NCBI GenBank assembly: GCA_025677815.1
Contig: JAIXMP010000017.1
Span: 372,001-436,000, forward strand
DNA: 64,000 bases
Origin: Phascolomyces articulosus
Lineage: Eukaryota > Mucoromycota > Mucoromycetes > Mucorales > Lichtheimiaceae
Direction: 5' to 3'
Of this stretch, positions 3,696 through 60,644 are shown piece by piece. The notes beneath the pieces are model-generated. The model saw only the letters and a program-made list of their open reading frames with translations. It was not told the origin of the DNA and did not search any database. Numbering within the stretch: position 1 is the stretch's first letter; each line of letters begins with the position of its first letter. Both the position numbers and the translations under genes were made by a program.

Positions 3696-4623
3696 TTTAT
3701 GATGTATCATGGTATATATTGATGGTGATGAACTAATTTATGGAATCTTTTTCTTTTATATGAATATCCTATAGTGGGAAGGTGACAACTATATCTTGAC
3801 TCAACAAACTGCTCGTTATCTCTTGAAGACTTACCGTAACGTTGTTGCTGGTAAGGCTGTTGCTTCTGAATACAACTTCACCGTCAACTACTTGCTTCAA
3901 TACCTCCAAAACCCCAACGCCAAGTGCCCTGCCACTACTGGTGCTGACTTGCTCAACCCTGAATTGATCTTGTCTGCCTTTGGTTTCCGTGCTGCTTACG
4001 GTATTGCCAAGACTGCTGAATTGATTGATAAGCAAGGTCACTCTTGGAACTCGATGCTCGTCGAAATCAACCGTATCTCTCGTGCTCACTGTCAATACAT
4101 GTTGGTCCGCACTTTTATTGTCTCTCTTCAAACAGATGAACGTTTCGCTAAGCCTGAAAACCGCGACTTGCTCAAGGTCCTCCGTAACTTGGCTTCCTTG
4201 TTTGCCTTGTACACCATGGAACAAGAATTAGGTGAATTTTTAACCTCTGGTTACTTCAACTCCGAACAAGCTGCCTTGTTGAAGCAACAAGTCATTGCTT
4301 TGTTGGAAGAAATCCGTCCTAATGCTGTTGCTTTGGTCGATGCTTTCGCTCTTCCAGATTACTACCTCAACTCTGCTCTCGGTCGTTACGATGGCAAGGT
4401 GTAAGTATAATTAATACCATGTTATTTTTTTTAGGTGAGAATAGTTTATGAATAATTAACTAACTTATTTTCTTTTCGTTTTTAAAGATATGAAAGTTAC
4501 ACTAAAGCTGCCGAAGGTGAACCATTAAACAAACAGTTGGTTGTTGAAGGTTACGAACAATTCATCAAGCCTTTGGTTCACGATGGTTTGAACCCTGCTG
4601 GTGCTCAAGCTGCTAAGCTCTAA
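1773..4623 (+). CDS. Peroxisomal acyl-CoA oxidase
   Basis: First enzyme of peroxisomal beta-oxidation: it turns acyl-CoA into trans-2-enoyl-CoA with FAD and passes electrons to oxygen, making hydrogen peroxide. Eight exons: 1773-2050, 2140-2203, 2292-2414, 2555-2938, 3026-3086, 3233-3648, 3775-4400, 4488-4623. They join in frame to 695 aa, the usual family length. Visible signatures are the acyl-CoA dehydrogenase-type TELGHGSNVQGLETTATY around residues 153-170 and the FAD-domain RACGGHGY around 421-428, with the C-terminal oxidase domain following. The protein ends in AKL, a type 1 peroxisomal targeting signal. All introns are GT-AG; intron 6 holds a long TA microsatellite. The start ATG sits in a good context 82 bp after a TATA-like motif. 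Which paralogue this is cannot be told from sequence alone. Confidence 0.95.
3663..3692. repeat. TA dinucleotide microsatellite in an intron
   Basis: About 15 uninterrupted AT units inside intron 6 of the acyl-CoA oxidase gene, shortly after the donor site. Confidence 0.9.
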
Positions 4624-5699
4624 AAAAATCAACACAATCTATTTTTTTTTTGATACCGCCACAATAACACTTTCTATTTTCCTTTTTGTTCATTTATTCT
4701 TCCTATCTTTCTTGTATATTCCGCTATGTAATTTTTTCTTCCTTTTCTTCACTTTTTCCGTGCTGTAATAGCTTATACATAATATGTTTAATCTAGATAA
4801 ATCAGGGCAACATTCTCCCCCCTGAAACAATAGATCTTATTTTTATTTTTTTGCTATCCATTATAAACCTTATGATCATGCTATTTAAAAAAAAAGCATT
4901 TTGTTAAAAATAAAAAGCATTTATAAAAAAATATATAAAAAGGTTCTTTTTTATTCTAGCAGTACTGAATTATTGATAGGGGGATATTCATGCAGGATCA
5001 TTTACATTCGCTACCATGATCGAATTACTGTTTTTAACAATATGTTCCACAAAAGGGTGAATCCCGCAAGTTAGAAAATTTGCAGAACGCTTGAGATATT
5101 ACGCCATTCTCGACATTGTTGGTTATATAATCATTTTTTCGGTGGGAGGGGGGGATTACATGGAAACCATATATGCATGCAAATAGCCCTTCATATATAT
5201 ATATATATATATTTAATATGATGAAATATGGCTTATTAAAACATTTAATGTATAGGGTCACATTGTTTGTAAGCTAAGGAGTTAAGGGTAGAAATGGGTT
5301 TGCTATCAATGGTAATTATACTTTGGACATATTATGAATATGTAATATTTTCAAACTGTTCTTCTAACTTTCTTTTGAACAAATAAATTTATAGTCACAT
5401 CACCGGTAACATGTAGTGCTTCAAAGAAATTTGTTACTAGTAACATGCGATGATTCAAAAAAAAAAATTGTTACCAGTAACAACTTTTTTATTACCCCCG
5501 TAAAAAAGAAAATACTCGTCTTTGTCTTGTTCCACTTACAAACACAGCTTTCTTCAGAAGATAAATTGTTGCTTTTTCAACTTAAACATTGGATCGTCCT
5601 GAATATTGATGGGCCCTGAAGTAATGAACATAATTGTTAAAGCAGTTGTTGATGGATATTATTATTAAATGTATTTGCTTCAGCGATTATATATTCAAT
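4624..5699. other. Intergenic, 3' flank of acyl-CoA oxidase
   Basis: T-rich 3' flank followed by AT-rich DNA with TA runs (5192-5213) and a short degenerate tandem repeat near 5405-5490. No coding exon is supported. Confidence 0.55.
5408..5490. repeat. Two degenerate hairpin-like tandem units
   Basis: Two adjacent units of about 34 and 37 bp each start with GTAACATG and end with TTGTTAC, so each can fold on its own arms (GTAAC with GTTAC). A third GTAAC start follows. No known family is recognised. Confidence 0.45.
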
Positions 5700-56508: not shown

Positions 56509-57730
56509 ATGTCTACCGATAAGATCACCGTTGTTATGAACTGGTAAATACTTTTATTTTTCTGCAAGACGCGTTTTCATATTCCATGTATAGCCCTTGA
56601 AACTCATAAATTCCAAAACCTGTGTTATTAGGCACGCTATTCCGTACCATCTTCCCGTGTACCTTGCTGAAAAGCTCAACTACTTTGTGGAAGAAGGCAT
56701 CAAGGTTGCTATTTTGGAACCCAACAACCCTTCTGATGTTACGGAAATTGTAGGCAGTGGTAAATCTGACTTAGCTTTAAAGGCCATGATCCACACTATT
56801 GCTGCCAAAGCACGTGGTTTCCCCGTCAAATCCATTGGTACTCTTTTGGATGAACCTTTTACTGGTGTCGTCTACTTGCGTTCTAAGAGCGGTATTACCA
56901 GCGATTTCCAAAGTTTACGTGGCAAGCGTATTGGTTACGTTGGTGAATTTGGCAAAATTCAATTGGACGAGTTGACCCGTCACTATGGTATGACACCCAA
57001 CGATTATACTGCTGTTCGTGTTGGTATGAACGTGACTGGTGCCATCATTCGCGGTGAAATTGATGCTGGTGTTGGTCTTGAAAACGTTCAAATGGTCGAA
57101 TTGGAAGAATGGTCCGTTCAACAAGGTCGTACCGCTGATGATGTTGCTATGCTTCGTATTGATGAACTTGCTCAATTGGGTTGCTGCTGTTTTTGCTCGG
57201 TAAGAATTGTTAATTTAAAAAAAAAGATACAAAGAAAAAAAAACCAAGAATATAAATCACTAACCAAAAAGGTGATGGCCTATATATAGATCCTCTTCAT
57301 TGGTAATGAAAACTTTATCAACAACAACCCTGAGAAGGTCAAGGCTTTCATGAAGGCCATCAAGCGTGCTGCTGACTTTATGTTCAAGGATCCCGTCAAG
57401 GCCTATGATCTCTTTGTTGAGATGAAGCCACACATGAACAGTATTGTGAACCGCAAGATCTTCCAACGCTCCTTCCGTTACTTCTCGCGTGATTTCAAGA
57501 ACGTTCAACGCGATTGGGATAAGGTTACCAACTACTGCAAGCGTTTGGAAATTGTTGATGATGCTTTTGAACAAAACCAAACCAATGAATTCTTGTCTTG
57601 GGAATTGTTGCCTGAATCGACTCCTGGTGTTGAACCACCCACTGTTGATACTGGTGTTGTTAGTTGCGGTTGCCGTAGCAACCACCCTCAAGGACCAACC
57701 CCTGACGTTGTCTCTGCTATCAAGGCTTAA
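56509..57730 (+). CDS. 4-amino-5-hydroxymethyl-2-methylpyrimidine phosphate synthase (THI5/NMT1)
   Basis: Makes the thiamine pyrimidine HMP-P from pyridoxal phosphate and a histidine of the enzyme itself, in an iron-dependent single-turnover reaction. Exons are 56509-56543, 56632-57199 and 57290-57730, giving 347 aa. The numbering matches yeast Thi5: Lys62 (binds PLP) and His66 (histidine donor) in LALKAMIH. The iron-linked CCCFC motif is at 196-200 in [19 protein letters not shown] at 11-18 and [11 protein letters not shown] complete the periplasmic-binding-protein fold. The C-terminal extension ends in a cysteine-containing SCGCRSNH tail. A complete TPP aptamer lies 230 bp after the stop, so thiamine feedback on this mRNA is likely. 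Both coding introns are GT-AG. Confidence 0.96.
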
Positions 57731-57735
57731 CAGAC

Positions 57736-57958
57736 GTAAGTTTTAAATATTGTATCCATGCTTTTTTTCTTTATATTTTTGGAAGAGTGAGTGGAGAGGA
57801 TGGAACGAGATGGGTGAATGGATAACATAAAAAGTAAAAACAGATAACTGACGAGATATTTTTACCTTGTTTCCCATTCCAAATTTTCTGATTTGGTTGG
57901 GATTCGATTTTTCGATTTTCTTTTTTTTTCTTTCTACCTTCTTTTTACATTTATACAG
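57736..57958 (+). other. Candidate 3'-UTR intron of THI5/NMT1
   Basis: GTAAGT starts six bases after the TAA stop, and TTTATACAG ends at 57958, one base before the first paired base of the TPP aptamer. A second strong acceptor, TATTTTTTTTAG, ends at 58066 just after the aptamer, so alternative 3' site use could keep or remove the aptamer. The interval has a pyrimidine-rich 3' part typical of introns here. Splicing is inferred; no transcript was seen. Confidence 0.6.
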
Positions 57959-57959
57959 C

Positions 57960-58053
57960 GGTCGAACCTAGGGGTGCTTGAGTTTATCTTGGGCTGAGAT
58001 CATTACCCTTCGAACCTGATCGGGTTAATACCTGCGCAGGGAAGCGTTCGACC
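57960..58053 (+). promoter_or_regulatory. TPP riboswitch aptamer (THI box) in the THI5/NMT1 3' region
   Basis: The conserved TPP aptamer core is present in order: GGGGTGC, CTGAGA, ACCC, AACCTGATC, GGTTAATACCTGCGCAGGGA. P1 is an 8-bp perfect helix, GGTCGAAC (57960-57967) with GTTCGACC (58046-58053). P3 is short and wobble-rich (CTTGAG with CTTGGG). CTGAGA in the pyrimidine-binding arm and the GCG-AGGGA region of the pyrophosphate arm match the family consensus. It lies downstream of the THI5/NMT1 stop and on the same strand. An AATAAA follows at 58077-58082, and no gene start lies closely downstream, so it most likely acts in the 3' UTR of that mRNA. Confidence 0.93.
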
Positions 58054-58076
58054 CTATTTTTTTTAGTTTAGCTTTT

Positions 58077-58082
58077 AATAAA
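58077..58082 (+). terminator. Possible polyadenylation signal
   Basis: AATAAA 24 bp after the riboswitch P1 helix, followed by A-rich DNA. It would place the aptamer inside the THI5/NMT1 3' UTR. Confidence 0.45.
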
Positions 58083-60062
58083 AAAGAATAGCTTATTGAT
58101 TTATCTCTGTATTAAATTGTTGTTGCTTAACGGCAAATGTCGGGATGATGCGGTATGTAAACACCCTGGCCATTTCCAATTTTTTATGGGCACGTGACTT
58201 AAGTTACGAGGGAAATAATTTCAAAAAAAAACATTTTATCAATTAGTGGTCATAAGTTGTACTAAGTTTATAAATGGAGCTTTTATAAAAAGAGAAATAA
58301 AGAATAATAGAGTATAAAAAACAGATAATGGATAATAAGAGAATATAAAGTTGGAATAACACTTACAAAGCTACGTGCTCATTTATTTCACCATGATTTT
58401 CTATACCATCTAGAGTATTAGAATGCTCAAGTAGGACACTACCGATAGCATCAAATCGTTGGTATAGTAGAAGATTGAAAGACATTATCCACCAAAACAT
58501 ACATAAGAACAACTTCTGGATGGGAAAGAGGAACCATCATCTACTATTTCTGAACAAGAGTATGTTCTTCAATCAATGCAAGGTGATCAAACTATTATGT
58601 CTGGGGCACTCTATTTCCATTTATTATATAAGTTAATAAATAGGAGTTAATATTGCTTAATTAACAAACCACATCAATCATTGTGGTGCAAATAAGGACC
58701 ATGTCAACTACATAAAATACATATATTATTATATAACCAGATTTTTATAATCTTTCCTCTACATATTTGGTATATTACATATTTTTAATGCTGTTTGTTT
58801 AGAATGTGGAATCTAGATTCAAAAACAACAGTCATTCAATATCATGAAGGAGGTGCAGCTAAAGTTTATTACGCTTAGCAAAAATGAAAGTACTGCGGCT
58901 ACTATTGTCACCTCTGTTTCGACTCTGTTCCTTCCCTGCAAATTTACCTTTCTCTCTTTTTTTCTCTTCACTTGTACCATTTCTCCTCATTACTCACTTT
59001 AACTTAGTTTTCCTCCCAAAGGAGAGTTTTTCAACTGATGTCATATATCTCTTTCATATATACGGTGATTGGACTCAAAGTACCACAAGGAAGCGATCAT
59101 ACGCCTATAGGCACAGGACAATCAAGTCTTCCACATTAAGAAATATAAATTTTAACCTGTAGCCGCCATTACTTACTGGCTGTAGACCCTTCCTCGTTGC
59201 TGCTGAGATCTTTTCCTGCTGTATCATTTGCATCAGGGTTATATACTAGAGCACAAAAATACTTTTATTAGTGTTGCTAAAGAACCATATGTATAATATA
59301 AAACAAAAAAGAAAACTTCAGCAAAGCATGGAAGTCTCACCGTTGTGTCTGTGAGGAAGCTCTTCTCTCTCCCGAAAGTTTTCAATACCCAACATAATCA
59401 AATTGATATATGGTACAGATTCTTTTTCTACCACAGGAGGTAAGGAAAAAGAAATACTTGTAAAACATATCTTCACAAATTGTCTAGTTAATTCGATTTG
59501 GTAGAATTTCAACTATATGAGGACGAGGAATAGAAGATTGAATTAATGGAAGAGAAGGAAGACATAATGATAGAGAGGCTTGCTATTCGAAAGCGAGCGC
59601 CTAAAAAGAAATTGGAGTCACTCGTTCTACATGAGGTGTGGGGAGAGAGATATGTCAATTTGGGTTAGAAGAACAACGTTCGTTTTTTTTGCAATTTTAT
59701 GAAAGCCCAGGCCCCTTTTCTATATGATGTTGGGGATGGATACGGTTCATTACTATATCCTTGAATCAAACCAATAATAAAAAAATCAATCAAATAAGGT
59801 AATATGTAATAATCCATAGAAATTCAATCAACTCTAAAAAAGAGAAACTCGTCCATAATTTGACACACTACTACACATTATAGTATTCAATCCAATTTGT
59901 CCAAACAAAGTATAAATATAAATATTATATCACAAACATTTTCAATTGAAAATATCAAAGCAAACGCCATTATACACATGCAAAACAAATACATTTTTTT
60001 TGTGAAAGCATGACAAATGCCTCTTTTATTACTAAAAGTTGTCAACATGAATATCAAAACAC
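58083..60062. other. Intergenic with weak coding remnants
   Basis: 2.0 kb. Short coding-like traces occur on the plus strand near 58528-58648 (PSSTISEQEYVLQSMQGDQT) and 58802-58878 (MWNLDSKTTVIQYHEGGAAK), each ending in a stop, and on the minus strand at 59169-59512. No intact gene can be built. Confidence 0.45.
59169..59512 (-). pseudogene. Possible gene end or remnant, family unknown
   Basis: A frame from about 59512 reads FTSISFSLPPVVEKESVPYI then IMLGIENFREREELPHRHN and reaches a GTGAGA donor at 59340. An acceptor (CTCTAG) at 59246 opens an exon in the right phase: VYNPDANDTAGKDLSSNEEG, ending with a stop at 59169. No start codon or upstream exon fits, so it may be a truncated copy. No family is recognised. 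Confidence 0.3.
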
Positions 60063-60644
60063 TTATTGGGTGTTAAGAATATCAGAGTCACCGGCATCAG
60101 TGATGGAAAGGACGGTGGTGCGGAAAAGCTTACCGCAAGCGGTACCAAGGTCAATGTTGTCTATTAACAAATTAAATTTTTTTTAGTATTTCTGCTTCCA
60201 TAACTATTGTCTCTGTCAAATAAAAAAAATTTTCTGTTCGATCACATACTGCCGTTGTAGTGGTGGACACCGGTCTTGGACAACATGGCGTAGTATTCAA
60301 GCTCGGACTTGCGAAGAGGGGGGCAGTTACCGGCAATGATGATGAGCTTGGCTATGAGATTTAGAGAAAAAAAATTGGACATAGATTAGCAAAACGAGGC
60401 GGGGGACGATCTCAGCCCGAACAGTACCCAGGGCGACTACTTTTTGTATGTCTTTTTTTCATGGGCTCCTGTCCCCCAAGTAGTCTTTCAAAAGAATTCC
60501 CAATTTGATATACTTACACTTTCCTTGACGGAGGGTCTTCAAGGTAGACTTGTAGCCCAAGGTGTACTTGCCAGACTTGGTGACGAGTTGGAGACGCGAG
60601 TTGATAGACTCAGAGTTCTTCTTCGACTTGTTTGCGGGGGCCAT
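60063..60644 (-). CDS. RPL30: 60S ribosomal protein eL30
   Basis: Component of the large cytosolic ribosomal subunit; in yeast it also binds its own transcript. Exons are 60644-60518, 60351-60250 and 60160-60063, giving 108 aa, the family size. Conserved blocks are [60 protein letters not shown] and [20 protein letters not shown]. The start is the ATG at 60644; a TTTTAG acceptor sits seven bases upstream and a GTAATT donor at 60756, suggesting a 106-nt 5'-UTR intron, common in ribosomal-protein genes. It is divergent from the EF-Ts gene across 332 bp. Confidence 0.97.

Follow-up and report, generated by a model that had tools for sequence, protein, structure and literature searches.

Three strong TPP aptamers are present in the genome of the mucoralean fungus Phascolomyces articulosus, each of them on the sense strand and 3' of the stop codon of a gene: the pyrimidine synthase gene THI5 (NMT1), the thiamine gene THI4, and a gene of the sugar-transporter family of MFS proteins. 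This 3' placement is well supported by the sequence. For THI5 we favor the interpretation that the aptamer is part of a TPP riboswitch in the 3' UTR, with a role in the splicing of that UTR or in the choice of the transcript's 3' end, and we give this reading a probability of roughly 0.55.

A TPP aptamer behind THI5

The window analysed here is a stretch of 64,000 nucleotides from contig JAIXMP010000017.1 (features in Table 1). The protein encoded by its THI5 gene matches the Pfam NMT1 profile (PF09084) with 238.7 bits and the THI5 structure 4h65 of the PDB with 444 bits over residues 1-310. A search of the assembly (47.4 Mb in 110 contigs) found a single THI5 locus, whose 3' region likewise has no further copy. 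The next gene 3' of THI5 is RPL30, which is encoded on the opposite strand.

The original prediction, made from the letters of the window, was that a full TPP aptamer with an 8-bp P1 helix follows the THI5 stop codon, and a covariance-model search with the TPP family was proposed as a check. That search bears the prediction out: RF00059 matches positions 57960-58059 on the plus strand over its full length (model positions 1-105 of 105), with 61 bits against a gathering score of 54.3 and an E-value of 1.6e-9, and this is the sole Rfam match above gathering score in the window. The aptamer is on the strand of the gene and begins 229 nt 3' of its stop codon. Its P1 helix (GGUCGAAC/GUUCGACC) consists of 8 bp between 57960-57967 and 58046-58053, and two further pairs beyond a 1-nt bulge extend it to 10 bp. 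The minimum free energy of the aptamer is -35.3 kcal/mol, as compared to -26.24 +/- 3.13 kcal/mol for shuffled sequences, of which one in 200 equalled it. Membership in the family is thus indicated by score, and also by the core motifs together with the P1 helix. The THI5 transcript would extend through the aptamer.

Table 1. Coordinates of THI5, the TPP aptamers and the candidate processing signals. Positions are those of the window unless a locus (L006, L007) is named.
Feature	Position	Strand	Basis or remark
THI5/NMT1 pyrimidine synthase gene	56509-57730	+	3 coding exons, 347 aa (spliced translation)
THI5 coding exons	56509-56543, 56632-57199, 57290-57730	+	
THI5 introns	56544-56631 and 57200-57289	+	
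THI5 stop codon TAA	57728-57730	+	
Candidate 3'-UTR intron donor GTAAGT	57736-57741	+	5 nt after THI5 stop
Candidate branch point CTGAT	57888-57892	+	putative
Stretch complementary (with G-U) to aptamer J2/4-P4-P5 strand	57889-57908	+	weak alternative-pairing candidate
Candidate acceptor AG (TTTATACAG)	57957-57958	+	one base 5' of P1
TPP aptamer, P1 to P1	57960-58053	+	RF00059; Rfam match extends to 58059
AG at aptamer P1/P2 border (CCTAGGGG)	57970-57971	+	sequence and family consensus
Candidate acceptor AG, after T8 tract	58065-58066	+	immediately 3' of aptamer
AATAAA poly(A)-signal-like hexamer	58077-58082	+	
THI4 locus	L006 (G000 C16), stop 5133-5131, aptamer 5049-4908	minus	RF00059, Pfam Thi4
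THI4 donor GTACGT	L006, 12 nt after stop	minus	GTANGT match
MFS gene, Sugar_tr family	L007 (G000 C100), stop ends 4251, aptamer 4332-4458	plus	RF00059, Pfam

Two other features of this neighborhood were recorded. The gap 3' of THI5 holds an AT-rich tandem repeat (29 bases, 2.3 copies, 58284-58350). An intron of RPL30 (Pfam L7Ae/L30e; 60352-60517, minus strand) contains GGGGGACAGGAGCCC ... GGGCTGAGATCGTCCCCC, which we take to be similar to the autoregulatory kink-turn of yeast RPL30; the stretch has no Rfam match, and its predicted fold has no extra stability over shuffles (z = -0.26).

The strong aptamers of the genome all lie 3' of genes

In the genome-wide search with RF00059, 49 out of 1128 first-look candidates went on to scoring, and five gave matches at E <= 10. 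The three strong matches are those at THI4 (63.8 bits), THI5 (61 bits) and the MFS gene (48.9 bits); the last is under the gathering score of 54.3, yet has an E-value of 2.7e-7 in the genome. The remaining two (24.2 and 21.5 bits) gave no TPP match at E <= 1 when searched again. None of the five lies in the 5' region of THI5. The predicted 3'-UTR placement of the THI5 aptamer is supported, and within the same genome it recurs at THI4 and at the transporter gene.

The core motifs CTGAGA, TAATRCC and GCG are intact in all three aptamers. The P1 helices differ in sequence and all pair when at most one bulge is allowed on each strand; every one of the six innermost pairs varies, with pairing kept. 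The THI4 aptamer has a long P3. The MFS aptamer starts 80 nt 3' of the stop codon. Of the MFS gene the last exon was scanned, and the Pfam profile ends at residue 341 of the 344 scanned; because the profile thereby reaches its end, we regard the stop as the true end of the protein.

A pattern search with GGNTAATNCCNGCG, allowing up to one mismatch, returned 114 places as compared to 100 for the reversed control. The places listed include seven without a mismatch: the three known aptamers, and four others that gave no TPP match at E <= 1. Elsewhere (L009, 1586-1671) a long inverted repeat matches a plant miRNA model on both strands with 31.9 and 30.8 bits, against a cut-off of 67 bits; it is perhaps the hairpin of a mobile element. 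The genome also contains 22 matches to the CotH family, a family that is expanded in Mucorales.

Candidate splice and polyadenylation signals in the 3' flanks

The processing signals of the original prediction were all found behind THI5: a GTAAGT donor five bases past the stop codon (at 57736), acceptors ending at 57958 and 58066, and an AATAAA that follows the aptamer, starting at 58077, 17-23 nt 3' of the aptamer end. The candidate 3'-UTR introns of THI5 measure 223, 236 or 331 nt. The two strands of the window (128 kb together) hold 144 GTANGT motifs, a density that gives a chance of 0.0145 of meeting one at any of the 13 start positions that follow a stop codon. This chance applies to each of two genes, THI5 with a donor at 5 nt and THI4 with a donor at 12 nt.

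Individual signals carry different weight. The candidate branch point, CTGAT, is also the motif that stands before the acceptors of two MFS coding introns. The AG ending at 57958 has no other AG in the 103 nt before it, a gap matched by 26 of 2000 shuffles; this is weak evidence, because many such gaps occur in the window. The AG at the P1/P2 border resembles an alternative acceptor reported in plants and green algae (PMC9544697), and is not diagnostic here because it belongs to the RF00059 consensus.

Behind THI4, the distal acceptor ends at 4535 and is accompanied by CCTAACC and a T tract. An AATAAA at 4843 lies between the donor and this acceptor, use of which would remove both the aptamer and the hexamer. 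The distance from the donor to the P1/P2-border AG is 81 nt at THI4; at the MFS gene it is 83 nt, measured from a GTAATG 9 nt after the stop. For comparison, the seven coding introns of the THI5, THI4 and MFS genes measure 78-123 nt. This GTAATG is not a consensus donor and is the only candidate there: no GTRNGT was found between the MFS stop and the aptamer. A poly(A) hexamer at 4299 lies between it and a distal acceptor. The first consensus donors at the MFS locus are 3' of the aptamer, at 4473 with others up to 4607, and with the acceptor at 4698 the last of these bounds a 92-nt intron-like stretch (4607-4698).

Predicted pairing between donors and aptamers

In the 3'-UTR switch of plants, the donor pairs with the P4-P5 strand of the aptamer. 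THI4 differs from plants in that its donor pairs with the 5' strand of P1. A 22-nt window around the donor reaches -19.3 kcal/mol in its pairing with this strand and the adjoining 5' flank, a value matched by 7 of 500 shuffles and by 5 of 406 neighboring windows. With a 30-nt window the result is weaker against the same controls (18 of 500 shuffles, 53 of 404 windows), and with the aptamer cut at 5049 the donor pairing falls outside the six best windows. When the P1 strand was compared to the stretch from stop to aptamer, none of 300 controls was as good; we do not rely on this figure because the strand was chosen after the first result. Pairing through the P4/P5 strand of THI4 was tried and rejected (252 of 300 as good).

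In the predicted ensemble of the THI4 RNA, P1/P2 pairs have a probability of 0.00-0.01 without ligand. Forcing seven P1/P2 pairs costs 6.7 kcal/mol in a 280-nt RNA; in a longer RNA with all 22 modelled pairs imposed, the cost is 12.6 kcal/mol. For the MFS aptamer the P1/P2 probability is 0.05, and forcing P1 with part of P2 costs 3.1 kcal/mol. Low P1/P2 probabilities and forcing costs of 6.7 and 3.1 kcal/mol are as expected of a two-state switch. With the aptamer forced, the nine donor bases of THI4 are unpaired less often (down from 0.52 to 0.35, and from 0.34 to 0.24 in the longer fold). The modelled THI4 flank agrees with a plant-type two-state switch, with the caveat that the forced ensemble does not free the donor bases. 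On these predictions it is the best candidate in the genome for a plant-like 3'-UTR switch.

At the MFS gene, donor-aptamer pairing is at chance (74 of 500 and 227 of 500 as good; 88 of 300 and 104 of 200 in separate runs). The weak donor opens upon forcing from 0.23 to 0.53, and hardly moves in a longer fold (0.25 to 0.30). Its acceptors close, from 0.78 to 0.06 at 4343 and from 0.83 to 0.16 at 4698. A pairing of the exon start at 4699-4707 with the P4 strand was not significant (30 of 300 shuffles) and was set aside.

THI5 presents a different picture. Donor-aptamer pairing, the lever known elsewhere, was dropped for this gene because 268 of 500 and 231 of 500 shuffles were as good. P1 is predicted to form without ligand (pair probabilities 0.64-1.0). 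Accessibility at THI5 was computed with a corrected P1 register, since the register of the covariance model mispairs the THI5 P1, and with fewer forced pairs and shorter RNAs. Under these settings forcing the aptamer produced no change in the predicted ensemble at the donor, the branch point or the acceptors at 57958 and 58066; only the AG at 57971 closes slightly, from 0.19 to 0.07.

Other pairings at THI5 were considered. The branch-point region 57888-57908 may pair with the P4/P5 strand, a pairing equalled by 13 of 300 shuffles and by 9 of 299 random stretches; against the whole aptamer 105 of 200 were as good, and the pairing is missing from the predicted ensemble. We regard it as a weak lead. 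The P1/P2 strand showed nothing against the THI5 intron, since 262 of 300 shuffles did equally well. Inclusion of the AG at 57958 in an extended P1 was confined to the local fold; in a longer fold this AG is 0.88 unpaired, with or without the aptamer, and the pairing was dropped.

Comparison with known TPP riboswitches

Fungal TPP riboswitches have been divided into four types, all of them in the 5' UTR or in internal introns as that classification describes them (Mukherjee et al. 2018, PMC5882874). The THI5 aptamer does not lie in a 5'-UTR intron before exon 1 (type I), nor in a coding intron (types II and III), the THI5 gene model ending 5' of it. Ascomycete NMT1 and THI4 genes are of type I: the aptamer, within a 5'-UTR intron, switches donors and upstream ORFs (PMC5882874), in Neurospora NMT1 by means of a donor lever through P4-P5 (PMC5882874). 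What is shared with P. articulosus is the aptamer class, the target genes and splicing as the likely output; what differs is the position, 5'-UTR intron in the one case and 3' of the stop codon in the other. The same source lists one TPP riboswitch at a Mucor NMT1 gene, and an aptamer in the 3' UTR of eIF5B of Postia placenta, unvalidated by that paper's own fold check (PMC5882874). The latter is, as here, a fungal 3'-UTR TPP aptamer, but eIF5B is not a thiamine gene.

A 2024 survey reports TPP riboswitches of Mucoromycota at THI4, NMT1 and sugar transporters (PMC11683625); all three kinds of target recur here. As given there, the sugar-transporter group is in the 5' UTR, and 5'-UTR type I is the commonest type overall (PMC11683625), whereas in P. 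articulosus all three aptamers are 3'. The original claim that no description existed in this lineage therefore does not stand for TPP riboswitches of NMT1, THI4 and sugar transporters as such, which are published for Mucoromycota (PMC11683625; PMC5882874 for Mucor NMT1). As to their place, no description of a 3'-UTR TPP riboswitch on a fungal THI5 or THI4 gene was found in the main-text passages searched. As far as this literature goes, systems of this kind are already known, and what is new is the position 3' of fungal thiamine genes.

TPP aptamers in the 3' UTR are known in plants (PMC10226581). The plant THIC switch and the THI5 locus share an aptamer 3' of the stop codon of a pyrimidine-synthesis gene, a 3'-UTR donor and acceptor, and an AG at the P1/P2 border; the gene family differs, being THI5 and not THIC. 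The resemblance to plants that had been suggested for THI5 is better sustained at THI4, where pairing of the donor region with the aptamer and an AATAAA before the distal acceptor are both found. At THI5, pairing between the aptamer and the 3'-UTR donor is no better than chance, and the candidate intron (57736-58066) was found to hold neither AATAAA nor ATTAAA, the hexamers sought as a sign of a processing site of the plant kind. In algae, 3'-UTR TPP riboswitches are reported for SSUA/THI5-like genes of Micromonas and Aureococcus (PMC4260697), an arrangement that is, in aptamer, position and gene, like that of THI5 here.

A contig scan of GTDB genomes recovered six bacterial THI5-like loci; the same scan gave no fungal loci, and a scan of viral contigs gave no THI5-like locus. 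In five of the six (L010, L011, L012, L013 and L015, from MAGs labelled Chlamydiales, Gammaproteobacteria, Myxococcota and Pseudomonadota) the sense strand carries a TPP match over the cut-off 5' of the gene match, within about 440 bases of it at four loci and about 2.4 kb away at L013. This suggests that the THI5-like family is served mostly from the 5' side in these bacteria, and from the 3' side here.

Discussion

How might an aptamer in this position act? At THI5 an intron would open just 3' of the stop codon, and binding of TPP would alter either the splicing of this 3'-UTR intron or the end of the transcript, such that high TPP would reduce the amount of stable mRNA. The likelier lever at this gene would be the folded aptamer itself, standing between the alternative acceptors at 57958 and 58066. 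At THI4, the probable switch would keep the 5' strand of P1 paired with the donor region as long as TPP is absent; formation of P1 would draw that strand away. It is possible to generalize, and to suppose that in an early-diverging fungal lineage the whole TPP-riboswitch regulon moved to the 3' ends of genes, there to control an intron close to the stop codon, independently of plants and with levers specific to each gene (sequestration of the donor by the P1 strand at THI4, choice of acceptor around a preformed aptamer at THI5). We offer this wider view tentatively, and would sooner doubt it than assert it.

The most serious alternative, in our judgement improbable, dispenses with splicing: the aptamer would work in the 3' UTR by altering, once TPP is bound, cleavage and polyadenylation at the AATAAA at 58077, or the stability of the mRNA. 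The short distance from the end of the aptamer to that hexamer is in keeping with it, as is the predicted preformed state of the THI5 aptamer, which implies that ligand would stiffen the structure and not switch it; moreover, the 3'-UTR aptamers of Micromonas and Aureococcus are on THI5-like genes without introns (PMC4260697). Such a mechanism, however, leaves unexplained the consensus donors next to the stop codons of THI5 and THI4 and the good acceptors that go with them, and for a diatom 3'-UTR aptamer alternative polyadenylation is reported as tested and not found (PMC9544697). The diatom is also the precedent for an aptamer that is conserved, and binds TPP now or did so formerly, and no longer regulates, given that a predicted 3'-UTR TPP riboswitch there was unresponsive to thiamine (PMC9544697). 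Unused aptamers should decay; the intact core motifs of the three aptamers, and P1 helices kept with differing sequences, therefore count against a loss of function, and we consider it quite unlikely. Least credible by far is the reading in which an unannotated transcript starts in the THI5 3' region and has the aptamer as its 5' leader, as the upstream TPP matches at bacterial THI5-like loci might suggest. It would need to apply at three loci, and RPL30 behind THI5 is on the other strand. Downstream of the three aptamers, the sense ORFs with a minimum length of 45 aa between stops number 22 (9 in window 58060-60040, 4 in L006 4907-3170 on the minus strand, 9 in L007 4459-6250), and none has a Pfam match at E <= 0.05; this test, which covers coding ORFs, lends no support to a downstream gene with the aptamer as its own leader.

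We return, then, to a riboswitch in the THI5 3' UTR that acts on splicing or on the 3' end. Counting against it are the preformed THI5 aptamer with its unchanged splice sites, the chance-level donor pairing at THI5 and the MFS gene, the lack of a GTRNGT donor before the MFS aptamer, the weaker THI4 figures in the wider window and longer fold, and the diatom aptamer that did not regulate (PMC9544697). According to a 2025 paper (PMC12335538), no riboswitch ligand other than TPP has been convincingly demonstrated in eukaryotes. Three aptamers 3' of stop codons in a fungus would show that control of thiamine genes from the 3' end arose, or survived, outside plants and algae, and would offer a tractable fungal system for ligand-controlled splicing of 3' UTRs. 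They would also prompt a re-check of the assignment of riboswitches to genes in Mucoromycota; if the regulon as a whole has moved to gene 3' ends, it is the published 5'-UTR assignments that would need to be checked again.
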